Source of the DNA: Trueperaceae bacterium
GTDB lineage: Bacteria; Deinococcota; Deinococci; Deinococcales; Trueperaceae
Direction of reading: 5' to 3'
Length of the DNA stretch: 64,000 nucleotides
Assembly (NCBI GenBank): GCA_002707365.1
Contig: PAMQ01000018.1
Location: 1-64,000 of the forward strand
Shown: in pieces, positions 1-33,164 of the stretch
Layout of the letters: each line of letters starts with the position of its first letter
How positions within the stretch are numbered: position 1 is the first letter of the stretch
Made by a program: the position numbers and the translations under genes
The notes under the pieces: generated by a model
Seen by the model: only the letters and a program-made list of their open reading frames with translations
Databases searched by the model: none
What the model was told of the DNA's origin: nothing

Positions 1-555
1 AATAGCTAGTACTAGCACGGCACTAGCCATTGCAGTGAAGCGCCACCCGTACATGGTTAATGACCACGCTATTACTGGCGCAATGAGTCCACCCGCACTG
101 AGTGCAACTTGGAGTAATGCCAGTGCCATTGAGCGGTGTCTGATGAACCAATTTACTACTGCGGTGGTGGGCGCAAGGAAACCACCTAGACTGGCACCGA
201 AAGACGCAATTACAACAGCAGCAAAGAAAAGAGGGAGGCTGTTAACTTGACTGAGCATAACCAGCCCAATGGCGAATACAACGAGACCAATTCGGATTAT
301 TCTTTGGGGACCAAACCGCTGTAAAAGCCAACCTTGTAACGGCCCGAGAAAACCAGTAGCTTGATTAGCTGCGAAGGCAGCCGCAAAAATCGTGGCACTC
401 CATCCAAATTCGGTTTGCATAACAACCGCGTAAGCGCTGTAAGCATTAAATAACAGGCCAGCGGGAAGGATTTGCACAGCAATGGCTGCGCCTAAAACCC
501 ACCAGCCGGGGAACAGATTTTTGAGCCACACGCGAAGCTTGGTGGTTGCCAACAA
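1..555 (-). CDS. MFS transporter, N-terminal part (cut by window edge)
   Basis: The minus-strand frame stays open from tandem TTG codons (555-553 or 552-550) to base 1, about 185 residues, so the C-terminal half lies outside the window. Translation by eye gives a cytoplasmic start rich in Lys/Arg, a first helix beginning near PGWWVLGAA, and further hydrophobic helices. A loop reading LLQRFGPQRII resembles the major facilitator motif between helices 2 and 3. A GGGGG run lies 7-10 bases before the TTG codons. This fits the N-terminal six-helix bundle of an inner-membrane MFS permease, possibly of the organic-anion or monocarboxylate type, but the substrate cannot be read. It is divergent from the PhyH/sulfatase cluster, so it could import that cluster's substrate (inference). 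Confidence 0.75.
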   Translation of the reverse strand, partial: MLATTKLRVWLKNLFPGWWVLGAAIAVQILPAGLLFNAYSAYAVVMQTEFGWSATIFAAAFAANQATGFLGPLQGWLLQRFGPQRIIRIGLVVFAIGLVMLSQVNSLPLFFAAVVIASFGASLGGFLAPTTAVVNWFIRHRSMALALLQVALSAGGLIAPVIAWSLTMYGWRFTAMASAVLVLAI

Positions 556-762
556 AATCAAGCCCCCTTCTGGCTTGCTGACCTGAAGAGGGCAAGCACG
601 CGCCCTATTGTGACCTGTTTGTTCGTAAAATCACAGCCCCGAACAGGACTAGCAGCGGTTTTGGAAGTGTTAAAATCTTTGTTCAAGTTGCCTAAGTTAG
701 CGTAGTCAAAGTAGCGTTTAAGATTAATTCCAATCAGCCGTAAGGCGGGAGCTCTGATAGAT

Positions 763-1650
763 GTGAATCTAAGTATAGGTACTCGGGAGTTAGAACTCGG
801 CGGCAAGTACTTGGGTTCCTTAAGAGACGCTACACATTTAATGTCGGACTTGCCGGCACTTCGGGAACGTTTAGTCGAAGATGGGTATTTGCTTATTCGG
901 CAACTGCACGACCCAAGTAAAGTCAAGGAAGCACGCCGAGTGTTTCTCGAAAACCTTGCCGCTGCAGGGCAACTGGATTCTGGGCATCCGCTCGCTGACG
1001 GTGTTATTGCTGAGGGGAAACGCGGTAGATTTGACGGTGATTCAAAAAAAATAACCCACTCTCCCGAATTCCTCAATCTGGTTGAATCCCCAGAGCTCAT
1101 GCAGTTCTTCAGTGAGTTTTTGGGCGAGCCAGCCCTCACTTACGATTTCAAATGGCTTCGTGTTGTTGGTCATCGTGGCTTCACGGGCGCTCATTACGAC
1201 ATTGTTTATATGGGGCGGGGTACCGAAGAGGTTTACACTGTTTGGACTCCATTAGGTGACGTTAGGTACGAAGATGGTCCGCTAGCTATGTTGGTTGGTT
1301 CGCACCAGTTTGACCGGATCCGGCAAACTTACGGCAAGATGGATGTTGACCGAGACAAGGTAGATGGTTGGTTTTCAAATGATCCCGTCGAACTAGTTGA
1401 TTCTTACGGCGGTCAATGGCAAACAACTGAGTTCAAGGCGGGCGACGCACTGATTTTTGGTATGTACACCATGCATGGTTCTATCAGGAACATGACTAAC
1501 CGCTTCAGGTTAAGTGCAGACACTCGATACCAACGAGCTAGCGACCCGGTGGACGAACGTTGGATAGGGGAAAATCCGAAGGCACACTATGCCTGGCTAA
1601 AGGGCGAAACAGTACCGATGGAAGAAGCACGAAAGCGTTGGGGTGTCTAA
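763..1650 (+). CDS. PhyH-family Fe(II)/2-oxoglutarate dioxygenase (1)
   Basis: A 295-residue member of the phytanoyl-CoA dioxygenase (PhyH) family: cytoplasmic non-heme iron enzymes that hydroxylate a substrate using O2 and 2-oxoglutarate. The iron triad is visible as H144-x-D146 (GAHYDIVYM) and H238 (YTMHGSIRN), with Arg247/249 (NRFRLSADTRY) as the probable 2-oxoglutarate anchor. The central LVGSHQ matches the family's PGSH strand. The start is GTG at 763; the overlapping ATG at 761 is followed directly by a stop. A weak GGGAG lies upstream. It is the first gene of a same-strand cluster with a sulfatase and a PhzF-like gene. It differs from the other PhyH proteins here, lacking the WHQD motif, so it probably acts on another substrate. 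The substrate is unknown. Confidence 0.85.
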   Translation: MNLSIGTRELELGGKYLGSLRDATHLMSDLPALRERLVEDGYLLIRQLHDPSKVKEARRVFLENLAAAGQLDSGHPLADGVIAEGKRGRFDGDSKKITHSPEFLNLVESPELMQFFSEFLGEPALTYDFKWLRVVGHRGFTGAHYDIVYMGRGTEEVYTVWTPLGDVRYEDGPLAMLVGSHQFDRIRQTYGKMDVDRDKVDGWFSNDPVELVDSYGGQWQTTEFKAGDALIFGMYTMHGSIRNMTNRFRLSADTRYQRASDPVDERWIGENPKAHYAWLKGETVPMEEARKRWGV

Positions 1651-1658
1651 ATAACCAC

Positions 1659-1734
1659 CGAAAAAAAGTTTTTCAGGACGCTTAAACTAACGTACAAATA
1701 CCTTTGATAAAAAACTTTTTCGCTTCATTTTTTT
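1659..1734 (+). terminator. Possible AT-rich terminator after PhyH (1)
   Basis: Complementary arms at 1659-1674 and 1709-1722 (A-rich then T-rich, with a central G/C) could pair, and a run of seven T follows at 1728-1734. The stem is almost all A-T and the loop is long, so it may be only an AT-rich spacer before the sulfatase gene. Confidence 0.3.
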
Positions 1735-1779
1735 GATATGGTTCACTTAATTACCCGGTAGAGGAAACGGAACCATTTT

Positions 1780-3246
1780 ATGAGTACACGCCCGAATATC
1801 CTGTGGTACTGCACCGACCAACAGCGTTTTGACACTATCGGGGCGCTCAACAACCCGCATGTTCAAACCCCACGCCTTGATAGCTTCATGCGAGAGGCAG
1901 TCACTTTCACGCATACTTACTGCCAGAGCCCAGTATGCACGCCAAGTAGAGCCAGCTTTCTCACGGGAATGTACCCCAGTGCATTACACGTGAACGGTAA
2001 TGGAAGTGCAGATTTCCCAGTTGCGCTTGAGGATCACCTTGTGACTAATCGTTTGGCGAGAGAGGGGTACGACTGTGGCTTGATAGGTAAGCTTCATATT
2101 GCCTCGGCATACAACGGAATTGAAAATCGTGTTGATGATGGTTATCGGACCTTTCATTACAGCCACGGTAATCGGAAAGACGGACATGACTATTTCGATT
2201 GGATCCGCCAGCAAGGCGAGAATCCCGAAGTTCACCTCAAAAATCGGACTGAGAACCCATTAGTTAATGCCGCTGGTATTCCGAAACAGCTGCAGAAGGC
2301 GGGTTTGTACCTCCCAACAGAAGAATCAGATAATGTCCCACCTCACTTACACCAAAGTTTCTGGTGTACTGAGATGGCTGTGGATTTTTTGGAGGCTAAC
2401 GAAAGTAATGAACAGCCTTGGCTTCTGAGTATCAACCCATTCGATCCGCACCCCCCGTTCGATCCGCCTTGGGAGTACTACCGTCGTTATGATCCTGAAA
2501 GTTTGCCTGGTGCTCACTTCAAGGACAGTGACATTGCGCAACAAAAGAAACTAGCTAACGCGGGTGTTGATTTCCAGTCTGAGACACAACACCCAGAGGA
2601 ATTCGGTCACCAGGCCATGCAAGCAGCTTACTACGCTATGATTACGCAACTCGACCACCAGTTTGGTCGGTTACTTGATCACCTTGAAGAGATAGGGCAA
2701 CGCGACAACACCATAATTATTTTCACTAGTGACCATGGTGAAGCTCTTGGAGATCATGGTCTAAGTCAAAAGGGCTGCCGGTTTTACGAGGGGTCAGTGC
2801 GTGTACCGTTAATGATCTCTTGGCCTGGGCATTTTCGAGAGGGAATTACGAGCGACGCTCTGGTGGAACTTAGTGACTTAACACCTACCTTTTATGACCT
2901 TCTCAATATCGAACCGCCGTACGATGTTCAGGGCAAGTCGCTACTACCTGTTTTAACTGGGAAATCAGTCGAACACCGTGATTTTGTTCGTTCTGAGTTT
3001 TTAGGAGCACTTGCCCTGCCGGACCAGACTCATGCCACGATGTACCGCGATCGTAAATGGAAACTCATTACGTACCATGCGAAAAACATGTTTGAGCTTT
3101 TTGATTTAGAGAGCGACCCTTGGGAACATAATGACCTGTCGGGCGACCCTAATTATCAGGCCATAAAGTGGGACTTGGTACGCCGTAGTTTTGACGCCAC
3201 TATCGACGCACTCCCCAGAAGCACCCCCAGAGTTGGGCCTTACTAA
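1780..3246 (+). CDS. Type I sulfatase (formylglycine-dependent)
   Basis: A 488-residue arylsulfatase-family hydrolase that would cleave sulfate esters from an organic substrate. The signature CTPSRASFLTG at residues 53-63 contains Cys53, the residue converted to formylglycine by a maturase, and Arg57. Metal-site residues are visible near the N-terminus (TDQQR, D13/Q14) and at SDHGEALGDHG (D318, H319). The C-terminal part has the usual MYRDRKWKLI and FDLESDPWE patterns. No signal peptide is evident, so it is probably cytoplasmic, like many choline-sulfatase-like or small-molecule sulfatases. A GAGGAAACGGA stretch precedes ATG 1780. It is followed after 49 bases by the PhzF-like gene and lies between two PhyH genes. 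No maturase (FGE or anSME) is in the window. Confidence 0.93.
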   Translation: MSTRPNILWYCTDQQRFDTIGALNNPHVQTPRLDSFMREAVTFTHTYCQSPVCTPSRASFLTGMYPSALHVNGNGSADFPVALEDHLVTNRLAREGYDCGLIGKLHIASAYNGIENRVDDGYRTFHYSHGNRKDGHDYFDWIRQQGENPEVHLKNRTENPLVNAAGIPKQLQKAGLYLPTEESDNVPPHLHQSFWCTEMAVDFLEANESNEQPWLLSINPFDPHPPFDPPWEYYRRYDPESLPGAHFKDSDIAQQKKLANAGVDFQSETQHPEEFGHQAMQAAYYAMITQLDHQFGRLLDHLEEIGQRDNTIIIFTSDHGEALGDHGLSQKGCRFYEGSVRVPLMISWPGHFREGITSDALVELSDLTPTFYDLLNIEPPYDVQGKSLLPVLTGKSVEHRDFVRSEFLGALALPDQTHATMYRDRKWKLITYHAKNMFELFDLESDPWEHNDLSGDPNYQAIKWDLVRRSFDATIDALPRSTPRVGPY

Positions 3247-3295
3247 TGAGTTGGGGTAACACCAAGTTCGGTTACACCACCGGAATTAGGTTGGC

Positions 3296-4105
3296 ATGAC
3301 ATTAACTATTGTTCAGATTAATGCGTTTACTAACAAACCGTTTAGTGGTAATCCAGCTGCCGTGTGTTTGCTTCCCGAACCCGCATCTGAAAGTTGGATG
3401 CAAGCAGTAGCGAAAGAGATGAATCTCTCCGAAACTGCTTTCCTTGTGGCTCATCACGATGGTTATGACTTGCGTTGGTTCACTCCATCTGTAGAGGTTG
3501 ATTTGTGTGGTCACGCTACTTTAGCTAGTGCGCATCACTTGTGGGAAGTTGGTCACCTGTCAGTCGATGATACTGCTCAGTTCCACACCGCTAGTGGACT
3601 ATTGACCGTTGAACGTGAGGCCGACACGATGGTCATGAATTTCCCCGCTACTCCCCCAGTGTTGAGCGACCCACCAACAGAGTTACTCGAGGTTATTAAT
3701 GCTGACGTGAATTACGTTGGGAGGAGCTCTTTTGATTACCTCGTGGAAGTACCTTCCGAAAATGATGTTCGTAATCTCGACGCTCATGATTTTGCTGTGC
3801 TTACCCAACTCGATTCACGTGGAATCATTGTGACTGCTTCTAGTGATAGTGACTCATTTGATTTTGTGTCGCGCTTCTTTGGCTCAGGAGTGGGCATAGT
3901 TGAGGATCCAGTTACGGGATCAGCGCATTGTGCTTTGGGGCCGTACTGGGCTGAAAAACTAGGTAAATCCGACCTGATGGCTTTCCAGGTTTCTGCGAGA
4001 GGTGGACAAATCGGAATTCGTATGAAAAGGGATCGGGTTCTGCTGATTGGCCAAGCAGTAACGGTAATGCAGGGTGAACTCCTCACCCCACTCGAACGGC
4101 CGTAA
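3296..4105 (+). CDS. PhzF-family isomerase/epimerase-like protein
   Basis: A 269-residue PhzF/diaminopimelate-epimerase-fold protein. Visible family features are the N-terminal NAFTNKPFSGNPAAV, the probable catalytic Glu46 in LSETAFL, the DLCGHATLASAH motif and the C-terminal VEDPVTGSAHCALGPYW. Family members catalyse proton-shift isomerisations, as in phenazine biosynthesis, but most genomic copies have unknown substrates. There are no other phenazine genes here, so a phenazine role is not supported. The start ATG has an AGG a few bases upstream. The gene follows the sulfatase on the same strand and may process the same metabolite (inference). Confidence 0.88.
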   Translation: MTLTIVQINAFTNKPFSGNPAAVCLLPEPASESWMQAVAKEMNLSETAFLVAHHDGYDLRWFTPSVEVDLCGHATLASAHHLWEVGHLSVDDTAQFHTASGLLTVEREADTMVMNFPATPPVLSDPPTELLEVINADVNYVGRSSFDYLVEVPSENDVRNLDAHDFAVLTQLDSRGIIVTASSDSDSFDFVSRFFGSGVGIVEDPVTGSAHCALGPYWAEKLGKSDLMAFQVSARGGQIGIRMKRDRVLLIGQAVTVMQGELLTPLERP

Positions 4106-4181
4106 TGGAATTAGTAGGGTCAGGTAAGAATCAGAAATGCTTTGTTCACGACTAAGGATTGTTAATTAAAGGTGGGTTCTT

Positions 4182-5396
4182 ATGACGAGTGAACACAAGT
4201 TAAAAGTTCAGCAGGTCACGTGGGGCCCAAATCATCATTTCTTTGGTTACATTGGGCATGTTCAGAATATTCCTTGGAATTTGTCTGAACGTTACATTTT
4301 GGCGCTCGAGAGTAACTTCCATGATCATCTTCCCAGTGGGCATGAACCAGCTGGTGTTGTACTGATCGACACCCATGATAATTACTCAGTTAGTTTGGTT
4401 GATCAGTCACGCGGGTGGAATCCGCAGCAGGGCACAATGTTCTACTGGAATCCTGAGGCTCAGGAGAACCAGTTTTTTTTTAATGATCGGGATGCAGTAA
4501 CGAACGAGGTTTTTTGCGTGCTGTTTGACCGGTCTTTAGGTCCTGATGGTGAACGCGTCAGGGAGTACCGCTTTCAGGGACGACCGATTGGTAATTCCGG
4601 TGTTGCGCAGCAGGGTGGTTGGTTCTTAGGGATTAATTACGGTCGTCTTGGGCGGTTACGAGCCGTAACTGGTTACCATGGCGCAGCTGATTGGACTGAA
4701 GGGATTAAGCACCCCAAGGATGATGGGGTGTTCAAAGTTAATGTCGGGACGGGGGAATGCGATTTACTCGTTTCGTTCAACGAATTAGCAGAGGCTATCC
4801 GGCCGGCTGACCCTCAAGTTGATGAGCTTGATTTATTCATTAATCACACCCTCTGGAGTCGTGATGACACTCGTATCTTCTTTTTCGTTAGGGGAGGCTG
4901 GCAAGAGGGAGCCAGAAAATCAATTAATGCTGCTTTTGTGATGCGTCCCGACGGGAGAGAATTAACCCGGCTGGGCACTCACATTGGTGGTCATCCTGAA
5001 TGGGATTTTGGTGGCCGTATGATTGGAGCGTTAAGCGGCAGGCAAGTGGTGTTCGATGTTGATCGTCAGTTAGTAGTTGGGCAGCTTGGTGACACCAAAA
5101 TTTTTCCTGACGCTCAGGGCGACGTTGCACTCTCCCCTGAGGGCGACTGGCTAGTTAATGGCCATAAGGACTCTCAGGAGGCTCAGAATTATTTTACTTT
5201 CTACCGCCGATCGGACGGCACGCACGTACGATCACCGGGTTTCGACATTGGTTCGTGGGTTTCGGGTGATCTGCGTCAGGATCCATCCCCATGTTGGAAT
5301 CGAAGTGGAAGCAAAATACTGGTGCCTGGTTTGTCAGCACGGGATGATCATACAAGGCAGTTGTTCCTCATTTCTTTGTTGCCAGATCAACCTTAA
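4182..5396 (+). CDS. Beta-propeller protein of unknown function (oligogalacturonate-lyase-like fold)
   Basis: A 404-residue protein with no signal peptide or membrane segment. It shows repeated blade-like units: a DTHDNYSVSLVDQS strand pair, LFDRSLGPDGERV, VNVGTGECDLLVS, WSRDDTRIFFFVRG, FVMRPDGRELTRLG, GGHPEWDFGG, ALSPEGDWLVNGH and CWNRSGSKILVPG. The pattern of W-S-x-D-x-T and x-P-D-G-x-x turns suggests a TolB-like or oligogalacturonate-lyase-type propeller. Conserved-looking histidines in the HHFFGYIGH N-terminus and in GGHPEWD could bind a metal. A GGTGGG stretch precedes ATG 4182. It sits between the PhzF-like and PhyH (2) genes in one apparent unit, so a lyase or binding role for the cluster's substrate is possible. 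The exact family is not assigned. Confidence 0.6.
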   Translation: MTSEHKLKVQQVTWGPNHHFFGYIGHVQNIPWNLSERYILALESNFHDHLPSGHEPAGVVLIDTHDNYSVSLVDQSRGWNPQQGTMFYWNPEAQENQFFFNDRDAVTNEVFCVLFDRSLGPDGERVREYRFQGRPIGNSGVAQQGGWFLGINYGRLGRLRAVTGYHGAADWTEGIKHPKDDGVFKVNVGTGECDLLVSFNELAEAIRPADPQVDELDLFINHTLWSRDDTRIFFFVRGGWQEGARKSINAAFVMRPDGRELTRLGTHIGGHPEWDFGGRMIGALSGRQVVFDVDRQLVVGQLGDTKIFPDAQGDVALSPEGDWLVNGHKDSQEAQNYFTFYRRSDGTHVRSPGFDIGSWVSGDLRQDPSPCWNRSGSKILVPGLSARDDHTRQLFLISLLPDQP

Positions 5397-5454
5397 TTAA
5401 GTCGTTAATGTTGGTTGAGTACAGTAGAATGCTATTTACACAGGAGGGGACTTA

Positions 5455-6249
5455 ATGACGTCTGAGCAGGCAGTTGAAAAGCGTGAACAGATGCTGCGTG
5501 ATGGTTACTGCGTGATTGATAATGTGGTGCCTGAAGATTTTCTTGTTGAGTTGCGCAGTGAGACGGAACGACTTATTGAGAATCATGTGGAGCTTCCAGA
5601 GCACGTGTATCAGGGTCAGCATATTGGTGTGAAGCGAGATGATAATTCCGTCATTGCGAAGCTCCTGAGTTGGGCGCCCTCCTACGCGGCTCTTAAGGAG
5701 TTGGGTTTCGGGGATTTCGAGACTAATGCCGGTAGCGTAATTATCCTAACGAAAGAACCTAAAGGACCACCGCTTTACTGGCATCAGGATTGGATGAAAT
5801 GGGATGATCCTATGAGTGCCTCCCCTTGGCCGCAAACCATTTTTTTGAATTACTACCTTACTGACACGACGGTTGATAATGGGTGCTTGATGCTCATTCC
5901 TGGTTCGCATCGCAAGCGAATGCCTCTGCACGATAAGCTCGTGCCAGCGCATGAACAGGGCGCTAGGTTCATAGAGGAAGATGATCCCGTTATGTTCAGT
6001 GATGTTCCAGGTCAGATTGATGTTCCTGCGAAAGCCGGCTCGTTAGTGCTTGCAGACGCACGGATCCTACACGCCGCAAGACGAAATAAAACTGACCAAC
6101 GCAGGACACTCGTTCTTGCCTGGCACAGCCGACCTGTTAACACCATCCCGGACTATTGGGATGGTGACGTGCCCGACGTAATAGCTAATCGTGATCCTAA
6201 CGCCGAATACGACGCTTCACGCATTCCTGGGAAGTACCTGAAAAACTAA
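5455..6249 (+). CDS. PhyH-family dioxygenase (2), WHQD subtype
   Basis: A 264-residue PhyH-family Fe(II)/2-oxoglutarate oxygenase. The iron ligands are H110 and D112 in YWHQDWMKWDDP and H206 in ARILHAAR, followed by Arg216/217 (DQRRTLV) for 2-oxoglutarate. The middle holds NYYLTDTTVDNGCLMLIPGS, typical of the family core. A strong CAGGAGGGG ribosome site lies just before ATG 5455. It shares the WHQDW...NGCL...PGSH...LHD layout with the genes at 29004 and 32120, which look like paralogs. It ends the sulfatase/PhzF/propeller cluster. The substrate is unknown; small hydroxyl or acyl compounds are typical for the family. Confidence 0.9.
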   Translation: MTSEQAVEKREQMLRDGYCVIDNVVPEDFLVELRSETERLIENHVELPEHVYQGQHIGVKRDDNSVIAKLLSWAPSYAALKELGFGDFETNAGSVIILTKEPKGPPLYWHQDWMKWDDPMSASPWPQTIFLNYYLTDTTVDNGCLMLIPGSHRKRMPLHDKLVPAHEQGARFIEEDDPVMFSDVPGQIDVPAKAGSLVLADARILHAARRNKTDQRRTLVLAWHSRPVNTIPDYWDGDVPDVIANRDPNAEYDASRIPGKYLKN

Positions 6250-6350: not shown

Positions 6351-6518
6351 ATGGAAACCGCTAGTGTCGGCGGAAAAACCGATACATTTTACGTGCAGAC
6401 TCACTCCTATGGAACCGCTGTTATTTCTTATCTAAGTGTCACTGATTTTAATGACGCTAGGGTAGCTACACTCCAAGGTGACGATTTTCACCACATTGCT
6501 TTTGTCTACATTGACTGA
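6351..6518 (+). CDS. Small ORF, 55 residues, unknown (possible gene remnant)
   Basis: An ATG-initiated frame of 55 codons encodes a protein with alternating polar and hydrophobic stretches (TDTFYVQTHSYGTAVISYL, then DDFHHIAFVYID). The composition is protein-like rather than random. There is no ribosome site before the ATG, and an in-frame stop at 6330-6332 closes the frame upstream. It may be a small beta-strand protein or the tail of a decayed gene. I do not recognise it. Confidence 0.3.
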   Translation: METASVGGKTDTFYVQTHSYGTAVISYLSVTDFNDARVATLQGDDFHHIAFVYID

Positions 6519-6810: not shown

Positions 6811-7683
6811 TTGCAGGCCTTCGGATTTGCATCACCAAAAACCGTGGATGAGGCTGTCGCGCTCTTAACCGAAAGCGCAGGTAACGCTCGCGTACTCGGT
6901 GGCGGCACCGACCTGATTGCCCAGCTGGATGAAGGTCGGATCAAAACTGAACTCGTTATTGACGTGAAACGTATTCCTCAGCTGACCGACCTAAACTACT
7001 CACTCCAAACCGGTCTCGAGCTCGGCGCTGCCACACCATGCTACCGCCTCTACTCGAACCCAGAAATCACGAGTGCCTACCCAGGACTTATCGATAGTGC
7101 CGACCTGATCGGTGGAAGAGGCATCCAAGGTAGAGCATCATTCGGCGGTAACCTCTGCAATTCAGGACCCGCCGGGGATTCCATCCCCGCAATGATCGTT
7201 CATAACGCAATCTGCGTTATTGCTGGGCCAGACGGACAACGCGAAGTTCCCGTCGAAGAATTCTGCGTTGCTCCCGGAAAAAACATTCTGAAGACTGGCG
7301 AATTCCTAGTCTCCATAAAATTCCCAGCCCCCACCGCACATTTCGGAGCTCATTACCTCCGCTTCATCCCACGTAACGAAATGGATATTGCTGTTGTTGG
7401 TGCAGGCGCATCAGTTTCACTAGACGAGACGGGCCAAACAATAGAACAAGCCCGCATTGCGCTTGGTGCCGTAGCTCCCACACCATTACTAGTTGAGGAA
7501 GCAGGTGCTTCATTAATCGGCAAGCAAGTTTCAGATGCCACTATCAACGAAGCTGCCCAACTAGCTCAAGAAGCAGCAAAACCCATCAGTGACATGCGTG
7601 GCACTGTAGAGCAACGCAAACACCTCGCTGCCGTACTAACCCGCCGTGCCCTAAACAAGGCAATCGAGCGGGCCAGAGGCTGA
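6811..7683 (+). CDS. Molybdenum hydroxylase FAD subunit (CoxM/XdhB-like)
   Basis: A 290-residue FAD-binding subunit of a xanthine-dehydrogenase-family molybdenum hydroxylase. It passes electrons from the iron-sulfur subunit to the final acceptor. FAD-binding motifs are VLGGGTDLI (about residues 28-36) and GGRGIQGRASFGGNLCNSGP in the middle. The C-terminal third matches the CO-dehydrogenase flavoprotein C-domain (AVVGAGASVSLD, ARIALGAVAPTP). The start is TTG 6811, chosen because AGGAGG lies seven bases upstream. Only eight bases separate it from the 2Fe-2S subunit. It opens a four-gene operon. Confidence 0.92.
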   Translation: MQAFGFASPKTVDEAVALLTESAGNARVLGGGTDLIAQLDEGRIKTELVIDVKRIPQLTDLNYSLQTGLELGAATPCYRLYSNPEITSAYPGLIDSADLIGGRGIQGRASFGGNLCNSGPAGDSIPAMIVHNAICVIAGPDGQREVPVEEFCVAPGKNILKTGEFLVSIKFPAPTAHFGAHYLRFIPRNEMDIAVVGAGASVSLDETGQTIEQARIALGAVAPTPLLVEEAGASLIGKQVSDATINEAAQLAQEAAKPISDMRGTVEQRKHLAAVLTRRALNKAIERARG

Positions 7684-7691
7684 AAGGACCA

Positions 7692-8177
7692 ATGACCTTG
7701 TCGAATCACGCAATTGTTAACACAACCATTAACGGCGAAGAGAAGACATTCCTTTGTGAACCCCGCCAGACACTACTTCAGGTCCTACGTGAAAACCTCG
7801 GTATGACCGGCACCAAGGAAGGCTGCAGCAACGGCAATTGCGGCGCATGCAACATTCTCCTCGATGGCGTACTAGTGAATTCCTGCTTAGTCCTAGCACC
7901 AGAAATAGAAGGTCGTTCAGTCACCACTATCGAGGGTGTTGCACCGACCGAAGGGCTACACCCACTGCAACAGAAATTCCTTGAGCATGCGGCTTTACAA
8001 TGCGGAATTTGCACACCAGGATTCATTGTTTCCGCCATAGCACTATTAGAGAAAAACCCTAAACCCACCGAAGAGGAAGTCCGCTTTCATTTGTCCGGCA
8101 ACTTGTGCCGCTGCACCGGTTACGACAAGATCATCCGCGCTGTTCTCGACACCGCTGAGAGCATGGCTTCCGCGTGA
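7692..8177 (+). CDS. Molybdenum hydroxylase 2x[2Fe-2S] subunit (CoxS/XdhC-like)
   Basis: A 161-residue small subunit carrying two [2Fe-2S] clusters that link the Mo site to FAD. The plant-type cluster ligands are C45, C50, C53 and C65 (GCSNGNCGAC, then NSC). The second cluster uses C104, C107, C139 and C141 (CGICTPGF and NLCRCTGY). All eight cysteines are present and the length is normal. AAAGGA lies immediately before the ATG. It lies between the FAD and Mo subunit genes in the usual M-S-L order. Confidence 0.95.
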   Translation: MTLSNHAIVNTTINGEEKTFLCEPRQTLLQVLRENLGMTGTKEGCSNGNCGACNILLDGVLVNSCLVLAPEIEGRSVTTIEGVAPTEGLHPLQQKFLEHAALQCGICTPGFIVSAIALLEKNPKPTEEEVRFHLSGNLCRCTGYDKIIRAVLDTAESMASA

Positions 8178-8208
8178 AGGGCGCTAGCAGAATGAGAGGG
8201 GAAACCCC

Positions 8209-10461
8209 ATGGCAGTAAAGGAGAAAAAACCACCCGCTAGTGATCAAACCTACAAGATTATTGGTTCTCGACCAATAAGACCCGACGGGGTTGATAAGGT
8301 CACGGGTAAAGCAATTTATGCTGCTGACGTACGAGTAGCAAACCGCCTTTACGGCGCAATGGTGCGCAGTCCCCACGCACACGCCCGCATCATCTCGATT
8401 GACACCAGTAAAGCCGAAGCAATTGATGGCGTGAAGTCAGTTGTCACAGCAGCTGACCTGCCTAACGTCGAGGACGGCTTGTTGTGGAGCAGCTGGAAGA
8501 TCCTGGCGCGCAACAAAGTTCTATACGACGGTCATGCTATCGCCGCAGTTGCCGCCACGAGCCTTGCTATAGCTCAAGAAGCAGCCGACCAAATCCAGAT
8601 CGAATACGAAGTACTTCCACCAGTACTCGATGTTCTAGACGCAATGGCCGACGATCCCATAATCGTTCTTGAAGACCTACGTACCACTGAGATGGGCGCT
8701 AAACTCGAAGGACGTACGAACGTAGCGAGCCACCTTCAGCACAGCCGTGGTGATATTAACGCTGGTTTCGCAGCTGCCGATGAAGTTATAGAACGAGAAT
8801 TCCGAACCAGCACTGTTCACCAAGGTTACATAGAGCCTCACAGTACCGTTGTGCTGTACAACGGTGACGATCACCTCACCATTTGGTGCAGCACCCAATC
8901 TGCGTTCGGAGTTCGTAATCAAGTAGCGGGCTTACTGGACATTCCAGTTTCCAGTGTCACAGTAATTCCTACTGAAATTGGTGGTGGGTTTGGCGGCAAG
9001 CTAGATCCATACCTCGAGCCAGTAGCAGCCTTACTTTCTAAGAAAGCTGGTTCCCGACCAGTACAGATGACCATGAGTCGCACTGAAGTCTTGCGTGGTA
9101 CCGGACCGACATCCGGTACGTACATCCGGGTCAAAATGGGGGCCACTAAAGACGGAAATCTCACCGCTGCTGAGGTGTACATGGCCTACGAAGCCGGAGC
9201 TTTCCCAGGTTCTCCAGTAGGTGCTGGCGCTGTCACCATCCTTGCTCCTTATCTGCTTGATAATTTGCTCATAAATGGTTACGACGTCATTGTTAACAAA
9301 CCTAAAGCAGCTGCTTACAGGGCTCCCGGAGCTACCGTAGCTGCCTACGCTGCAGAAAGCGTCGTTGATGAATTAGCAGAGAAACTGGGTGTCGATCCGC
9401 TAGATTTCCGTCAACAAAATGCCACACAAGAGGGCGACCGTCGAGCTGACGGACCGGTATTCGCTCGCATTGGGAATAAAGAGACACTAACGGCCGCAGC
9501 AGAACATCCGCACTACACCGCGCCACTAGAAGGACGCAACAGGGGCCGGGGTGTCGCGAATGGCTACTGGCAGAACTGGGGTGGCAAGTCCAGCGTCTCG
9601 GCAAGCATCAACGATGATGGGTCTGTAAACCTTGTTGAGGGTTCAACAGACATTGGTGGTTCCCGCGCATCGATCGCCATGCAGCTAGCTGAAACCATGG
9701 ACATCCCCTACGAATCCGTCCGGCCGCAAGTCGTCGACACGGACTCAGTTGGGTATAACGACAGTACTGGCGGCAGCCGCGTTACCTTCGCTACAGGCTG
9801 GGCAGCGTACGAAGTTGGCCTGAAATTAATTGATGAGCTTACTCGCCGGGCAGCCACACTCCTAGAGAAAGATCCTGACGACGTTATTTACGAAGATGGA
9901 TTCTTCGCTAGTAACGGCAACCGAGTGAGCTTCAATGAGCTGGCTGGCCGCCTGGATGAGACTGGCAGTCCAGTGGTGGCCTCTGCTTCCGTCCACCCGC
10001 AGGGATTCGGTGGGGCTTTCGGCACTCATATTGTTGATGTTGAGGTAGATACAGAAACCGGCAAAGTAGAGATCCTTCGTTACACCGCCGTTCAGGACGT
10101 GGGTAAGGCCATCCACCCGAGTTACGTCGAAGGCCAGATGCACGGGGGTGCAGCCCAAGGTGTCGGCTGGGCACTAAATGAGGAGTACGTTTACGACGAT
10201 GACGGTCGTCTATTAAACGCAAGTTTCCTTGATTACCGGACTCCCACGGCCCTTGACCTACCAATGCTCGACACCGTCCTAGTTGAAGTGGCCAACCCAG
10301 GTCACCCCTACGGAGTACGTGGCGTCGGAGAGGTCCCCATCGTTCCTCCCGTAGCAGCCATAGCGAACGCAATTTACGACGCAATAGGTATACGCATGAG
10401 GTCCCTACCAATGTCGCCCGGAAAGATCCTCAAGGCAATATGGGACAAAGAGGGGAACTAA
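8209..10461 (+). CDS. Molybdenum hydroxylase large Mo-cofactor subunit (xanthine-dehydrogenase family)
   Basis: A 750-residue catalytic subunit that binds molybdopterin cytosine dinucleotide and hydroxylates an aldehyde or N-heterocycle with water as oxygen source. Family motifs include GKAIYAADV near the N-terminus, EIGGGFGGK, KAAAYRAPGATVAAYA and the C-terminal GVRGVGEVPIVPP, whose Glu matches the catalytic base of xanthine oxidase. The loop that reads AYRCSFR in true form I CO dehydrogenase reads AYRAPGA here, so this is not an aerobic CO dehydrogenase of that form. A GAGAGGGGAA ribosome site precedes ATG 8209. The substrate is unknown; the nearby amidase could act on a ring-derived product (inference). 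Confidence 0.92.
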   Translation: MAVKEKKPPASDQTYKIIGSRPIRPDGVDKVTGKAIYAADVRVANRLYGAMVRSPHAHARIISIDTSKAEAIDGVKSVVTAADLPNVEDGLLWSSWKILARNKVLYDGHAIAAVAATSLAIAQEAADQIQIEYEVLPPVLDVLDAMADDPIIVLEDLRTTEMGAKLEGRTNVASHLQHSRGDINAGFAAADEVIEREFRTSTVHQGYIEPHSTVVLYNGDDHLTIWCSTQSAFGVRNQVAGLLDIPVSSVTVIPTEIGGGFGGKLDPYLEPVAALLSKKAGSRPVQMTMSRTEVLRGTGPTSGTYIRVKMGATKDGNLTAAEVYMAYEAGAFPGSPVGAGAVTILAPYLLDNLLINGYDVIVNKPKAAAYRAPGATVAAYAAESVVDELAEKLGVDPLDFRQQNATQEGDRRADGPVFARIGNKETLTAAAEHPHYTAPLEGRNRGRGVANGYWQNWGGKSSVSASINDDGSVNLVEGSTDIGGSRASIAMQLAETMDIPYESVRPQVVDTDSVGYNDSTGGSRVTFATGWAAYEVGLKLIDELTRRAATLLEKDPDDVIYEDGFFASNGNRVSFNELAGRLDETGSPVVASASVHPQGFGGAFGTHIVDVEVDTETGKVEILRYTAVQDVGKAIHPSYVEGQMHGGAAQGVGWALNEEYVYDDDGRLLNASFLDYRTPTALDLPMLDTVLVEVANPGHPYGVRGVGEVPIVPPVAAIANAIYDAIGIRMRSLPMSPGKILKAIWDKEGN

Positions 10462-21162: not shown

Positions 21163-23187
21163 TTACCAGCGCCTAAACACTTGCTCTATAAACCAAAGTA
21201 GACCACCGACGATAGCTAGTGCCAAAGTAATGTGCAATACCGGTTTTAACCAGCGAGGTGGACGACGGAGGACAATAACTTCCTGCATTTGTTCAGGCGC
21301 TTTTGGTACACCTGCTACCTCCGTGCCTATCGCAGCTTCTGGAATCAGCTCTCTTCCCATTACCTCCTTTAAAGCCTCTTCTTTGGATTCTTTTGGGTCT
21401 TCAGTGTTGATGTCGATGGTAATCGGCCCGAAGCCCGGTACGAACACCACGGTTTCTGGTAATTTGACGGGTTCAATATCGATTACGCATTCGACTGTTT
21501 TGTTTGAACCTTCAACGCCTATAGAAAAATACCCCGGTCCTGTGGGAGTCTCCTCTGGGATGGAGAAACTAACTAACGCTAATCCATCGCCGATTACAGA
21601 ATTCTCTACAGCCATTGCGGTACCCCCCAAAGCGACCGTAACCGCGCCATCGACGTTCAGTCCCTCTGCTCGCAAACTTACAGGTCCTCCTGGCCTCAGT
21701 ACCCCATAAGCCCGGCAGTACCCTAACTCGGATCTCGAGACCGTGAAGTCTACTCCGCTAGACAGGTCGCCTAGATGGTCAAGGACACTAAGTTGATCGT
21801 CGACAGTCATAAGCTGAAGTCGTATTTTATTAGGGACATTGTCCTTTATTGAGCGAGCGAACCTCGTGTTGCTAGTAAAACCCAGTTGAATTCCTTGTGA
21901 AATCGCGATTTTGTGATTGGGGAATGCCGACTCGTTTGCTTTTGGGTTCGGGTCGGGGAGACTGTACAGATCAGCCTCGAATGACACTTGGAAAGCGAAG
22001 GGTCCGACGATTTCGACAAGCTCTTGAGTGTCATCCGTTTCGAACACGATTAAATGGGGAAACGAATCGTTCTGTGTTGCTTTAGCAGAGAACACCAAGT
22101 CAATTCCTTCGAGCCCGGTTCTCGGTGCACCGATTGCTAAGAGCTCCTGATCACTCACCCCTAAACCTTCCCGATAATCTAAGAAGCCCCATACGGTAGT
22201 TGACTCCTCTGGTTGCAAAACCCCGTTGAGTTCTATGCGAAGATCGATAGGCGACCAGGGTAGGTCAGGGTGGTAACTTCCGCTAATCGTGGAAAAGGCC
22301 AAGGTAACTTCACCTAAGTCGTTATGCGGCTTTAGAGAGCGAGTCTCCTGTATAGGATCATGTATTCGTTTTGCCAGGAGAGCCGACGGTAGGTTGGCTC
22401 GTGGCCCCTGGATTGAGGCACCTGGGACAATTGCGGCTCCAGTACGCAGGAGTTCAACCTCCTGATCAACCAGTTCAATATTTCCCCATTCCGCATCGAC
22501 TCCCATCTGCTGTGCCTGCCACCTCATGAGTGCCCCTTCAGCATTGCGGAGAGGGAGAGATAGAGCCCGACCTACGGCGTGAGCCAAAAGAACCTCTGAT
22601 GGATCGAGGTAAGCAAGTTGGCCTAGAGGCAAATCAGCATATTTGTCTACAACAGCAATGCGACCGTCATAAGGCCGAACGCAATTGCCGCGGAACCTCC
22701 AGCAACCTGCCCAACTAATCACGGGTGTTTTCTCGCCAGATTCTTCGACAAACCGTCTTATATTTATGAGGGTGAGGCCCGTACTGGAATAGCCACTAGC
22801 AGCGTGAACAGCATCACAATGTTGTATTAGGGTGTGAAATTCTCTTCCCTGATCGGTACCATCACCTACCACGTCACCCGCCGTGCCCACACTGGGGTCA
22901 GGATCTAGAATTATAGGTAGTTTCAACTCGTTCTGTAGCTGACTGCTGTATGCGCTACGGAGTGTCACATCAGCTTGAGGAATGAACACAACCTCTGTAG
23001 AACGCCGGAGCCTTTCTCGAAGCTCTATACCTACTCTATTACCATCAAAACTCTGTTCAGTAGGACTGCCTTGCACGGCGCACCAAGTGACTGGCACCTG
23101 GACCGTCTGCCCGGTCGCCGTAATGCTTAAAGAGAGGATGACTAAGCCCACTACGACAGCGATATGTCGGAGATTAGTAAATTTCAT
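21163..23187 (-). CDS. Large secreted, C-terminally anchored protein with degenerate zincin motif
   Basis: A 674-residue protein with a signal peptide (residues 1-26, ending near TATGQ) and a single C-terminal hydrophobic helix (HITLALAIVGGLLWF) followed by Arg-Arg-Trp, so it is probably anchored with its bulk outside the cytoplasm. Residues about 30-220 resemble the layout of a matrixin-type metalloprotease, but the motif expected as HExGHALGL reads HAVGRALSL (H203, A204, R207). Glu and the second His are lost, so protease activity is not expected. The middle is beta-rich (LRIELNGVLQPEESTTVWGF and similar). A predicted stalk rich in Glu, Pro and Lys precedes the anchor. No family name is assigned. 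It converges on the hydroxyacid dehydrogenase gene. Confidence 0.7.
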   Translation of the reverse strand: MKFTNLRHIAVVVGLVILSLSITATGQTVQVPVTWCAVQGSPTEQSFDGNRVGIELRERLRRSTEVVFIPQADVTLRSAYSSQLQNELKLPIILDPDPSVGTAGDVVGDGTDQGREFHTLIQHCDAVHAASGYSSTGLTLINIRRFVEESGEKTPVISWAGCWRFRGNCVRPYDGRIAVVDKYADLPLGQLAYLDPSEVLLAHAVGRALSLPLRNAEGALMRWQAQQMGVDAEWGNIELVDQEVELLRTGAAIVPGASIQGPRANLPSALLAKRIHDPIQETRSLKPHNDLGEVTLAFSTISGSYHPDLPWSPIDLRIELNGVLQPEESTTVWGFLDYREGLGVSDQELLAIGAPRTGLEGIDLVFSAKATQNDSFPHLIVFETDDTQELVEIVGPFAFQVSFEADLYSLPDPNPKANESAFPNHKIAISQGIQLGFTSNTRFARSIKDNVPNKIRLQLMTVDDQLSVLDHLGDLSSGVDFTVSRSELGYCRAYGVLRPGGPVSLRAEGLNVDGAVTVALGGTAMAVENSVIGDGLALVSFSIPEETPTGPGYFSIGVEGSNKTVECVIDIEPVKLPETVVFVPGFGPITIDINTEDPKESKEEALKEVMGRELIPEAAIGTEVAGVPKAPEQMQEVIVLRRPPRWLKPVLHITLALAIVGGLLWFIEQVFRRW

Positions 23188-23448: not shown

Positions 23449-24144
23449 ATGAAACTCACGCCACAAGAAACCCAATTGTTCCGTCATAATGGATTCATTA
23501 AATTCCCCACCAGGCTAACTAAAGAGCATGTGGACAGCCTAAAAGCACAATCCCTGAGTGACATGAAGGAAGAAATTGAACCCCTGGTTAGAAAAGACTG
23601 AAGGGCAATTCGTATTTCGAATGTTTGGGGTCGTGGTGGAATTTTTCGAGAAACCATCCAATGTAATGAGATCATGACACCCCTGGAGTCACTTTTAGGG
23701 CCCAATATTGAATTTCTTCTTAATCGACACAATCACGTGTATTTGCGTGATCAAGACTCAACGGCTTCCTTAAAATTGCACCGCGATGTAAGGCAGTGGT
23801 CACGTACAATAGTTACGATTTTGATTTATCTCGAAGATACTCATTTGGAGAACGGCTGCACCCGCATTATCCCAGGTTCGCATCTCTTAACGTCTTTGCC
23901 GAATGATATTGAAGCTGCACAGGACCAGGTAGCTGTAAGGCAGGCGATTCCACTCCCTATGCCTGCCGGTGGGTTATTAGCGATTGATAGCATGGTTCTC
24001 CATGCTGCAGGTGTGAATCGGACCGAAGGTACACGCCTAAGCATGACGCTTGGGTATCACAGCGTAGACGAATTTGCAGAACCCGATGAACAAAAGAGGG
24101 TTTTAGTTCGTGGAGAACGAGTTTACGACGGAAATGACCAGTAG
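23449..24144 (+). pseudogene. PhyH-family dioxygenase (3), interrupted by in-frame TGA
   Basis: One reading frame runs from an ATG at 23449 (or 23413) to 24144 but is broken by TGA at 23599-23601. Reading through gives KLTPQETQLFRHNGFIKFP, the stop, then RAIRISNVWGRGGIFRETI and a good PhyH core: LLGPNIEFLLNRHNHVYL, the iron pair LHRDVRQW, ENGCTRIIPGSHLL, and the distal His in MVLHAAGVNRTEGTRL. No frame change is needed, so a single base change from GGA or CGA would explain it. The downstream part has its own ATG at 23674 but lacks a ribosome site. It is most likely a recent nonsense pseudogene or a sequence error. Selenocysteine is unlikely, since no hairpin stands out after the TGA. Confidence 0.8.
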
Positions 24145-26294: not shown

Positions 26295-28970
26295 ATGGCG
26301 GTGAACAAGATGGATAAACGATCAATATCGCGCCGGCCGGAATTCCTCTACCAAGGTGCAAAGACCCGAGAAATCTCCTTTCCCCTAGGAGGCCTTGGAA
26401 CGGGTTGCATTGGGCTGTCGGGAGATGGACGTCTTGTTGATTGGGAGATCTTTAACAAGCCAAATAAAGGCGGTATTAACGGTTATTCCCACTTTGCCAT
26501 AAAGGCTGAGAATTCGGGCATAGTACTTGATACGCGCCTTTTACACGGCGATCTATTGCCCCCCTATAGCGGTGAGGGTCAACAGTTTGGCTCGGGCCCT
26601 AACCGAGGTTACTTGGCTGGCCTTCCCCACTTCCGCACGTCGACATTTCGTGGTGAATTTCCTAAGGCAACGATTTCTTTGGAAGACCAGGCGTTCCCTG
26701 GGTCGATAGAGTTAACTGCATTCAACCCCTTCATACCGCAAGAGGATAAAGATTCCGGAATTCCCGGAGCCTTTTTTGAGATTGAAGTTCGTAATACTAC
26801 TGAGACCCCTATTGCGTACACCATTTGCTTTTCTGCTAAGAACCCACTTCCGGGAAAACCGAAAAACCATTTCCGTTACGATCCCCAACTCTCAACGATC
26901 CAAATGTCCTCATGTGACCTGCAACCCGATGACCCTAGATATGGTGACATTACTATTTCTACCGACGCGGAAGATGTAAGCCACTTAGAATATTGGGACA
27001 TGACTGCGTACAAAGGTGGTTGGGCTGATGACGTGAATGGCTATTGGAAAAAATTAGCAGCACCCGGAAGGTTTAATCAAGCTCCTGTCAAAAAGTGCGC
27101 GCGGAACACAGGGGCTAGCAAAAGTCATCATGCTAGTCTAGCTGCCCACATAGAAGTGAAGCCACGAGAAACAAGGACGATCCGGTTTCTGATTACTTGG
27201 AACTTCCCCTTATGTACTAACTATTGGAATCCGGTATTGATGGATGATGGGATTGAAGACCGAGTGGCTAACACCTGGAAGAATTATTACGCCACTTTGT
27301 GGGGCGACTCGACGGAATCAGCCCGTTACGCTTTCGAGTGTTGGGATGCGCTTCACAGCATGACTAACACTTTTCGGAATGCTCTTTTCTCATCTACTTT
27401 GCCTCCTGTCGTTATCGACGCTGTTTCCGCAAACCTTTCTGTTCTGAAAAGTCCGACCGTGCAACGGTTAGAAGACGGGACACTTTATGGATGGGAGGGT
27501 TGCCATCCGGATGAAGGTTGTTGCGAGGGCAGTTGTACACACGTTTGGAACTATGCATACGCCCTGCCATTTTTATTCCCAAAGCTAGAACGTGGGATGC
27601 GGGAGGTAGATTACCGACACAACATGGGTCCAGACGGAAGCATGAGCTTCCGTCTGCAATTACCTCTCGGAAGGCCGAGATGGGAATTCCGACCCTGTGT
27701 TGACGGCCAATTCGGTGGTGTTATACAAACCTACAGAGACTGGAAAATTTCTGGCGATACGGATTGGCTTCTCAGGCTCTGGCCATCAGTCGAAAAAAGC
27801 TTATCCTTTGCTTGGTCACCCGATAATGCGGATCAGTGGGACAGAAATCGAGATGGAGTATTAGAGGGATTGCAACATCACACCCTCGATGTGGAGCTTT
27901 TTGGTCCAAGCTCCTGGTTAAATGGTTTTTATCTAGCTGCGTTGAAAGCCGCTAGTGAAATGGCTAACCATCTCAATAAAGATGTTGCTGCTAACGAATA
28001 CAATGCCCTTTTTGAATCAGGGAAGCTATGGGTCGACGAACATCTATTTAATGGAGAGTATTACCACCAAGATATAGACCTGACCAATAAAGACATACTT
28101 GAAGAGTTCATGGGCCCTCGGTCGAGCACTAAACTCGATGGTCGCAGTGAAGCCGACATCTTTTGGGATGAGTACTGGGACGAGGAACACCAGCAGATTA
28201 GGTACCAGGTGGCGGAGGGTTGCGGTATTGATCAGGTTGTGGCTCAGTGGCACGCTAACCTTTGTGGATTGGGAGAGGTTTTTGATAAGACACAGACCTT
28301 GGTCGCCCTCAGGTCAATCTATAACCACAATTTTGTGAGGGAATTACGGAAGGTTAACAATCGCAATCGGCGAGTCTTCAGCATCAATGATGAAGCAGGA
28401 GTCCTTACTTGTTCCTACCCTCGTCACGAGCCTGAGGTGCCCCTATCTTTTGCTGCAGAGACAATGAGCGGATTTGAGTATCAGGTGGCTTGTCACATGG
28501 TTCAGGAGGGCATGATGAGCGAAGGGCTAGAGATTGTGAGTGCGATTAGGAAGAGGCACGATGGTGAAAAACGAAACCCGTGGAATGAGTTCGAATGCGG
28601 TAGCAACTATGCTCGTTCGATGGCTTCCTATGCTCTGTTGCCCGCTCTAAGTGGTTTCAAGTTTGACATGACCAAAGGTGTGATTGGTTTTGACCCGAAA
28701 CAAGATCTTCAGTCCCACCAGTATTTTTGGTCTATTAACGAAGGTTGGGGCATTGTGGAGATTAACGACAACAACATCAATCTTTCAGTTCTTCATGGCT
28801 CGCTGGTTCTCCGTGAGTACCATTCAAAACTGATTGCTGAGCGAGGAGTCCAAGGGGCGACCCTAGATGATCGAGGCATCACGTTTGCTGTATGTAGTAA
28901 TGCTGTGCTCTTTGATAACATGATTGATATACAAGCTGGTAAAAAGCTAAGGCTGGAATTCGATAAATAG
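26295..28970 (+). CDS. GH116-like glycoside hydrolase (non-lysosomal glucosylceramidase family)
   Basis: An 891-residue two-domain glycosidase. The N-terminal beta-sandwich begins REISFPLGGLGTGCIGLSGDGR, typical of GBA2/DUF608 proteins. The C-terminal (alpha/alpha)6 domain contains EGCCEGSCTHVWNYAYALP (about residues 405-425), RDGVLEGLQHHTLDVELFGPSSW with acidic residues in the active-site region, and NPWNEFECGSNYARSMASYA near the end. GH116 enzymes hydrolyse beta-glucosides, beta-xylosides or beta-GlcNAc. There is no signal peptide, so it is probably cytoplasmic and acts on imported glycosides. No ribosome site is seen before ATG 26295; M6 is an alternative. A PhyH gene follows after 33 bases, suggesting an operon. 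Confidence 0.88.
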   Translation: MAVNKMDKRSISRRPEFLYQGAKTREISFPLGGLGTGCIGLSGDGRLVDWEIFNKPNKGGINGYSHFAIKAENSGIVLDTRLLHGDLLPPYSGEGQQFGSGPNRGYLAGLPHFRTSTFRGEFPKATISLEDQAFPGSIELTAFNPFIPQEDKDSGIPGAFFEIEVRNTTETPIAYTICFSAKNPLPGKPKNHFRYDPQLSTIQMSSCDLQPDDPRYGDITISTDAEDVSHLEYWDMTAYKGGWADDVNGYWKKLAAPGRFNQAPVKKCARNTGASKSHHASLAAHIEVKPRETRTIRFLITWNFPLCTNYWNPVLMDDGIEDRVANTWKNYYATLWGDSTESARYAFECWDALHSMTNTFRNALFSSTLPPVVIDAVSANLSVLKSPTVQRLEDGTLYGWEGCHPDEGCCEGSCTHVWNYAYALPFLFPKLERGMREVDYRHNMGPDGSMSFRLQLPLGRPRWEFRPCVDGQFGGVIQTYRDWKISGDTDWLLRLWPSVEKSLSFAWSPDNADQWDRNRDGVLEGLQHHTLDVELFGPSSWLNGFYLAALKAASEMANHLNKDVAANEYNALFESGKLWVDEHLFNGEYYHQDIDLTNKDILEEFMGPRSSTKLDGRSEADIFWDEYWDEEHQQIRYQVAEGCGIDQVVAQWHANLCGLGEVFDKTQTLVALRSIYNHNFVRELRKVNNRNRRVFSINDEAGVLTCSYPRHEPEVPLSFAAETMSGFEYQVACHMVQEGMMSEGLEIVSAIRKRHDGEKRNPWNEFECGSNYARSMASYALLPALSGFKFDMTKGVIGFDPKQDLQSHQYFWSINEGWGIVEINDNNINLSVLHGSLVLREYHSKLIAERGVQGATLDDRGITFAVCSNAVLFDNMIDIQAGKKLRLEFDK

Positions 28971-29003
28971 CTAAGGAATATCTGCCATCAGGAGGTAGGG
29001 TCT

Positions 29004-29858
29004 TTGAATTCGATCAGTAGAGAGAAGTTCGAAAGCCAAGGGTTTTTCCTTTTCAAGCAACTACTAGATAAGGAACTCATTAGCCGACTTACTGGCTTCA
29101 GCGAAGAAGTACTAAGCCAGCAGGACTTAGAGCATTTTGAACAGCAGAAGGCGACCGGAAGCATGGTACTGATCGATTGGGAAATGGCTTATAGATACAG
29201 GGTTATTGCCGAGCTTATTGCGCACCCGAAAATCCTAAATGCCTTCCTTGAGCTCGGGTTTACAGAGCCGAAATTCGGGCATGGACGAATCATTAGCAAA
29301 CCACGACACAGCCCACCATTGTTTTGGCACGAGGACGGTCGGTTCTGGAACGATCCCGTTAGTTATACCCCTCAGCCTATACAGAGCTTCCTCATGATTT
29401 ATCTTACTGACACTACTCCTGAGAATGGTTGCCTGCGAGTCATCCCTGGTTCTCATCTCAAGCGACATTATCTACATGACCAGGTTCCTGAGAGGCACCA
29501 GGAGGAACTAAGGACCTACGCGACGCCAGAAGCAATTGGATTTCAAACTGCGGATGGCGAAATTGACGTCCCTGTGAAGGCTGGAGATGTGGTTATGGGT
29601 TATGCCTCAACCTTCCATGCTGCCCATGCGAACCAGAGTGACGCCAGCAGAACTGTACTGACAATGTGGTACTACCCAGACTTTGTGAACTTACCTGAAC
29701 GGAGTCAGGCAACCGTAGCTCTGCTTGAGAAAAAGGCAGGAACAGTGAAGGAAAGAAATGAGCAGGTGAGAGCCTTACTAAATCCGTTGAGAATAGTGTA
29801 CAACGGTGACGCTGAGCCGATTCCCACTGAGTGGACACCAGGGTCCAATCTAAAGTAG
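29004..29858 (+). CDS. PhyH-family dioxygenase (4), WHED subtype
   Basis: A 284-residue PhyH-family oxygenase with iron ligands H109 and D111 (FWHEDGRFWNDP) and H205 (STFHAAHAN), and Arg216 (ASRTVLTMWY) for 2-oxoglutarate. The core IYLTDTTPENGCLRVIPGSH and YLHDQVPERH closely parallel the proteins at 5455 and 32120. The start is TTG 29004, chosen because CAGGAGGTAGG precedes it. It follows the GH116 gene on the same strand, so the pair may handle one glycosylated compound (inference). A perfect palindrome lies 72 bases past its stop. Confidence 0.9.
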   Translation: MNSISREKFESQGFFLFKQLLDKELISRLTGFSEEVLSQQDLEHFEQQKATGSMVLIDWEMAYRYRVIAELIAHPKILNAFLELGFTEPKFGHGRIISKPRHSPPLFWHEDGRFWNDPVSYTPQPIQSFLMIYLTDTTPENGCLRVIPGSHLKRHYLHDQVPERHQEELRTYATPEAIGFQTADGEIDVPVKAGDVVMGYASTFHAAHANQSDASRTVLTMWYYPDFVNLPERSQATVALLEKKAGTVKERNEQVRALLNPLRIVYNGDAEPIPTEWTPGSNLK

Positions 29859-33034: not shown

Positions 33035-33164
33035 GGTTTCCCAGCCTCCTCGATTATGTCAAGTCGTTACTCGATAAACTTCTTAGCTTGTGACTCTTAA
33101 AGTACAATATTGAGTAGTAAATGGCCAGTTGATATTAGTGCGACATTTTGACCCTCGCTTAGTC

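Follow-up and report, generated by a model that had tools for sequence, protein, structure and literature searches.

The window analysed here is a stretch of 64,000 nucleotides at the start of the 101,542-bp contig PAMQ01000018.1, from the assembly GCA_002707365.1 of a Trueperaceae bacterium (phylum Deinococcota; genome of 2,076,724 bases, 2.08 Mb). Near its beginning lies a block of five genes encoding two Fe(II)/2-oxoglutarate oxygenases of the PhyH family (PhyH1 and PhyH2), a sulfatase, a PhzF-family protein and a beta-propeller resembling oligogalacturonate lyase (OGL), next to a divergent permease of the major facilitator superfamily (MFS). A first-pass annotation had suggested that these genes could form an undescribed route for a small sulfated metabolite, running through import, desulfation, hydroxylation and isomerization. 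The features of the region are as follows.

1..561, minus strand: MFS permease (MFS_1, Pfam 56.1 bits), a divergent 561-bp frame whose 3' part is cut by the contig start
763..1650, plus strand: PhyH1, Fe(II)/2-oxoglutarate oxygenase, 295 amino acids; Pfam PhyH 66.5 bits, H144-x-D146...H238
1780..3246, plus strand: S1-type sulfatase, 488 amino acids; Pfam Sulfatase 162.1 bits, C53-T-P-S-R
1936..1950, plus strand: CTPSR motif of the sulfatase (residue 53, coordinates from the start of the reading frame), the site that a formylglycine-generating enzyme (FGE) would convert
3296..4105, plus strand: PhzF-family protein, 269 amino acids; Pfam PhzC-PhzF 209.6 bits, E46/H73/D204
4182..5396, plus strand: OGL-like beta-propeller, 404 amino acids, assigned by fold; no meaningful Pfam or NCBIfam match
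5455..6249, plus strand: PhyH2, Fe(II)/2-oxoglutarate oxygenase, 264 amino acids; Pfam PhyH 96.8 bits, H110-x-D112...H206
6364..6385, plus strand: weak terminator-like stem-loop, 115 bp after PhyH2, with a second one at 6477-6492

The five reading frames all lie on the plus strand, as first described, and are separated in order by gaps of 129, 49, 76 and 58 bp. Pfam matches and motifs agreed with the identities proposed for the two oxygenases, the sulfatase and the PhzF protein, and these four frames are not chance matches, since their Pfam E-values range from 5.5e-18 to 8.4e-62. The divergent permease was likewise recovered; in NCBIfam its best matches, to MFS carriers of lactate and of oxalate/formate, all fall far short of the cut-off. 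Third-codon-position GC content of the five genes (0.42-0.50) stays within about 1.2 standard deviations of the window mean (0.469, standard deviation 0.041), so composition gives no sign of recent transfer. On the 3' side of PhyH2, a gap of 561 bp leads to a molybdenum hydroxylase of three subunits (6811-10461), then to an amidase; we treat both as separate from the block.

The sulfatase scored far above its Pfam cut-off of 25 and carries the C-x-P-x-R motif. Neither it nor the propeller has a signal-peptide-like start in the first 35 residues (judged by eye), and the enzyme is predicted to be a cytoplasmic-type S1 formylglycine sulfatase, in line with the original description. A gene for an FGE-family maturase is present in the same genome (G000:C10:77186, E 4.9e-87), together with 17 sulfatases above cut-off. 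At E 1e-60 the sulfatase has relatives in three other genomes of the phylum (51% identity over the matched part), where the neighbors are unrelated and in two cases look Cas-like by eye. The same threshold returned 11 plasmid records, and six of their neighborhoods were read. Three of these, with relatives of 42 to 46% identity on plasmids of Alphaproteobacteria (Chelativorans, Salipiger, Falsirhodobacter), resemble the window block in placing the sulfatase beside uptake genes, namely sugar ABC or tripartite transporters, with an FGE gene close by in two. The other three contain glycosidase genes, additional sulfatases, or an ABC system of unspecified type together with a TauD-type dioxygenase. 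None of the six loci holds a homologue of the other four genes (PhyH1, PhzF, propeller or PhyH2) within 6 kb and, unlike the three transporter clusters, the window block adjoins no ABC system.

The PhzF protein exceeds both its Pfam cut-off (27) and its NCBIfam cut-off (136.8 against 76.2 bits). The active-site residues of PhzF are E45, H74 and D208, and the SETAF, CGHATL and EDPVTGS stretches of the window protein align with the solved relatives 4dun and 1s7j. These two structures gave 173 and 167 bits, YddE gave 80 and true PhzF 46-47; a role in phenazine synthesis was rejected because true PhzF scores so far under the others. Within the phylum, 12 full-length relatives share 41 to 63% identity with it.

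Both oxygenases have a PhyH domain well over the cut-off of 22 and an intact H-x-D...H triad. Among solved structures, PhyH1 comes closest to 1-deoxypentalenic acid 11-beta-hydroxylase (2rdn, 36.6 bits), with whose His, Asp and His its triad aligns. PhyH2 is weakly similar to ectoine hydroxylase, on whose triad its own aligns, and also to EvdO2 and SnoK; matches to ETV6 were discarded as summed weak repeats. PhyH1 has no relative in the phylum at E 1e-35, and PhyH2 has one at 34% identity along with six paralogues in its own genome (37 to 41% identity). Those paralogues belong to a much larger set. The genome holds 53 PhyH matches, the next-highest listed count in the phylum being 20, and the family is present in 16 of 111 phylum genomes, which amounts to a lineage-specific expansion of these oxygenases. 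They tend to cluster: 32 of the 53 have another within 5 kb, and the window itself contains six (763-1650, 5455-6249, 23479-24036, 29004-29858, 31128-32123 and 32120-33034). With so many copies, it is doubtful whether the gene combination in the block exceeds chance. An enrichment of PhyH genes around sulfatases was expected and not found, as 2 of the 17 sulfatases had one within 1 kb (2.9 in a null that is rough, because random placements may overlap other genes) and 6 within 3 kb (4.9 in the same null). The two flanking oxygenases therefore weigh little, given the size of the family and sulfatases that lie no closer to it than random placement would put them.

Several other PhyH loci were seen along the way. 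Two paralogues, at window 23479-24036 and at G000:C10:172644-173222, carry an internal TGA stop and appear to be decaying. An adjacent pair of minus-strand PhyH genes lies beside two genes for ABC transporters in which the membrane and ATPase domains are fused (window 31128-36814). Elsewhere, 33 bp separate a GH116 glycosidase gene from the PhyH gene that follows it (window 26295-29858). A second PhyH-sulfatase-PhyH triplet, on one strand and of different sequence, is found at G000:C11:1194-4321, followed by a Gfo/Idh-type oxidoreductase (by eye).

The propeller is the least conventional member of the block. Its predicted structure (predicted local distance difference test score of 93.7) had OGL as the best PDB match in Foldseek (E 1.4e-11), and after re-alignment OGL entries ranked 1 and 2 (Z 28.3 and 28.2), ahead of a non-OGL propeller at 23.4. 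The model thus bears out the resemblance noted at first and predicts the OGL beta-propeller fold over nearly the whole length of the protein (OGL entries 3c5m and 3pe7; root mean square deviation of 3.4 over 327 aligned residues). It differs from OGL, which is family PL22 of CAZy, in being only 12-16% identical and in matching no OGL model in Pfam or NCBIfam. In Pfam, searched up to E 5, the sole match was CvfB_1st at E 0.12, and in NCBIfam it was spore_SleB (E 0.0012, far under cut-off); seven homologues compared with NCBIfam matched no OGL model. Profile searches of PDB sequences from either of two propeller alignments, among them that of 70 relatives (up to E 10), returned no OGL chain, so that the link to OGL rests on the fold.

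Relatives of the propeller were sought in GTDB genomes, where 156 loci were found and the best 80, 48 to 64% identical, were kept. An alignment of 70 rows (the window propeller and 69 of the 80 loci, with 11 left out including L109 and start codons chosen near 403 amino acids) has 55 invariant columns. This is a strongly conserved OGL-like family, spread over several phyla, that lacks a meaningful Pfam or NCBIfam match. More distant homologues (21 to 26% identity, related by hhalign at E 1.2e-32) occur in 14 plasmid records; six were fetched and five aligned, the sixth being a split Halocatena protein that was left out. This protein is annotated in two pieces (L012 1660-2934), and NCBI calls the second an oligogalacturonate lyase family protein. 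In OGL, three His and one Gln hold Mn. H222 of the window propeller is common to the intermediate plasmid homologues, and two His invariant in the five aligned ones correspond in the propeller family to Asp314 (70/70) and to Ala or Ser at position 369 (68/70; Ser369 in the window propeller). H271 is invariant in 70/70 and falls on a homologue histidine by hhalign but not in the 6-row MAFFT alignment.

No propeller was found at E 0.01 in any of the 110 other genomes of the phylum, the majority of them being 90% or more complete. A quick tree places the window propeller as sister to five Opitutales sequences, with a Shimodaira-Hasegawa-like approximate likelihood ratio test (SH-aLRT) support of 99, within a set of 19 rows whose other 18 members are Verrucomicrobiota (SH-aLRT 97); its own branch is long (0.51). 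This grouping, together with the absence from its own phylum, suggests transfer of the propeller between phyla, in either direction. The Opitutales loci hold its closest full-length relatives (60 to 62% identity) and resemble the window block in having a sulfatase upstream within 1.2 kb in 5/5 cases. They differ from it in the subfamilies of these sulfatases and in having neither PhzF nor PhyH1, with one weak PhyH2-like match; of the 4 genes scanned downstream of the propeller, 2 are of esterase type. Across the 80 loci, 31 of which extend 5 kb on both sides, a sulfatase was found within 5 kb in 22 and a PhyH2-like gene in one (L040, 25 bits), while PhzF, PhyH1 and the MFS permease were found in none where the flank was present. 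Among the six fetched plasmid homologues, only the Halocatena locus has a sulfatase, about 3.4 kb away. In a census of 74 of the 148 neighbor proteins (E 1e-10), the families included 11 sulfatases, 6 PfkB kinases, 5 pectic acid lyases, 5 gamma-glutamyltranspeptidases and 4 ROK proteins; neither PhyH nor PhzF appears in the 25 families listed out of 34.

The same five-gene order was sought in related genomes. Around 12 PhzF and 3 sulfatase relatives in the phylum there was no second member of the set in stretches of 3 to 16 kb (4 of the 15 covering only 3-5 kb), and none of 13 plasmid loci checked by sequence contained the gene set. These included a single neighborhood of a PhyH1 relative, the one fetched of 10 such records, which held none of the other members; of 65 PhzF plasmid records, none was fetched. 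No two of the five genes turned up together in the other loci searched, save for the propeller with other sulfatases and the weak match in L040. Nowhere in the material searched does the set recur as a conserved pathway, the outcome that the first-pass annotation had itself named as counting against its route, and searches of a set of open-licence papers found none on this cluster or on the propeller.

Within the window, the five genes probably form one transcription unit, to judge from their common strand, short gaps and the absence of internal terminator-like sites. A pattern scan found none of these within the block; two follow it. The region has fewer terminator-like sites (4) than shuffled sequences (mean 7.5), for which reason the stem-loop at 6364-6385 is weak, and promoter-like matches are also rarer than in shuffles (3 against a mean of 7.5). 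The window commonly has long runs of genes on one strand, with 8 (of which the block is the first five), 5, 10 and 7 genes. At another place in it, a minus-strand gene (21163-23187) encodes a 674-amino-acid protein with no Pfam match at the thresholds used.

None of the other genomes examined was found to have the five genes side by side, so the block is probably a catabolic cluster put together locally and not a new, established pathway. That this is a lineage-specific patchwork for a sulfated, carbohydrate-like compound seems to us about evenly balanced. A small sulfated compound, probably derived from a carbohydrate, would be imported by the MFS permease, and the cytoplasmic-type sulfatase, activated by the FGE of the genome, would remove the sulfate, as its family and motif suggest. 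The propeller, by its fold, may bind or rearrange the sugar or uronide part, and the PhyH oxygenases and PhzF, by family, might oxidize and isomerize the products. We infer the order of these steps, the substrate and the roles of PhzF and of each PhyH, and also that hydroxylation and isomerization would act on the same molecule. Import and desulfation, as originally proposed, are the steps that retain some support, from the three plasmid loci with transporters, the FGE gene and a weak adjacency of propeller and sulfatase. The histories of the genes seem to be distinct: the propeller groups with Opitutales, the relatives of PhzF and of the sulfatase are scattered in the phylum, and the oxygenases are part of the large set of their own genome.

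Several observations weigh against such a cluster. Within the sulfatase gene, a promoter-like match (3105-3132) could drive PhzF separately, and both pattern scans fell under their shuffle counts. No sugar chemistry that we are aware of has been established for PhzF proteins, and a named sugar transporter is missing from half of the plasmid sulfatase neighborhoods read. The association of propeller and sulfatase elsewhere is weak. In 9 of the 79 loci with controls the gene immediately upstream is a sulfatase, where the other genes of these loci would predict 3.8 (p 0.005, a value that ignores common descent, as do the other p-values of this test, five of the nine loci being one Opitutales clade). 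L109, with 64% identity and outside the tree, is probably a sixth such locus of that clade. On either side within 1.3 kb the count is 13 of 79 against 9.5 (p 0.08, not significant). The five Opitutales genomes each have at least 124-128 sulfatase matches, and the upstream sulfatases belong to other subfamilies, with scores of 31-107 bits against the window sulfatase, whose relatives in the phylum reach 502-518.

Some of these points favor a chance neighborhood, in which five catabolic genes happen to share a strand of a compact, PhyH-rich genome with 17 sulfatases and each acts alone. This is possible, if on the doubtful side: it agrees with the random-level spacing of sulfatases and PhyH genes, with the near absence of repeated gene pairs and with the long same-strand runs, but four consecutive short gaps, the placement of terminator-like sites after rather than inside the block and the adjacency of propeller and sulfatase elsewhere, weak as it is, speak against it. 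The dedicated, evolved route of the first-pass annotation, if kept by organisms outside those searched, is quite unlikely. The domain complement and operon-like spacing permit it and the second PhyH-sulfatase-PhyH triplet is in its favor, but PhzF is found at 0 of 80 propeller loci, no neighborhood is shared in the phylum stretches or the 13 plasmid loci, PhyH1 has no close relative in the phylum and PhyH genes approach sulfatases at the random level. We regard a biosynthetic cluster as very unlikely, one in which PhyH and PhzF would tailor a natural product and the sulfatase-fold enzyme would serve in tailoring or resistance. It would fit the relationship of PhyH1 to a pentalenic acid hydroxylase, the weak likeness of PhyH2 to EvdO2 and SnoK, which are antibiotic-pathway enzymes, and the naming of PhzF for phenazine synthesis; there is, however, no scaffold-building gene among the ten genes scanned in the first 12 kb, the PhzF protein is nearer to 4dun, 1s7j and YddE than to true PhzF, and three sulfatase relatives lie in sugar-uptake clusters.

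For the patchwork cluster, a wider and unlikely extension is that the propeller represents a new carbohydrate-active family with the OGL fold and a changed active site, conserved in seven phyla by record title, whose members would be cytoplasmic and have as substrates the sulfated uronides released with sulfatases. In this genome it would have been recruited to join PhyH and PhzF in a cassette for oxidative desulfation, within a PhyH expansion that widens the range of usable recalcitrant compounds. Expansions of this type have been proposed for SAR202, for which two papers describe the growth of a single family of oxidative enzymes to dozens of copies, taken as widening the substrate range, the families being flavin monooxygenases, enolases or ring-hydroxylating dioxygenases (PMC6946804, PMC5395668). 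The latter also reports phytanoyl-CoA dioxygenase in SAR202, for branched alkanes (PMC5395668). The genome studied here resembles these cases in the dozens of copies of one oxidative family and differs in that the family is PhyH and the phylum another one.

The single gene families of the block are known, its arrangement has been seen once and the propeller is a variant of the OGL fold that Pfam and NCBIfam do not name. As a pathway, the five-gene cluster carries little weight unless it is repeated elsewhere. The more valuable by-products are the unnamed, conserved family of OGL-like propellers, some members of which lie among sulfatases, and a genome whose 53 PhyH matches in 2.08 Mb parallel the expansions of oxidative paralogues proposed for SAR202.

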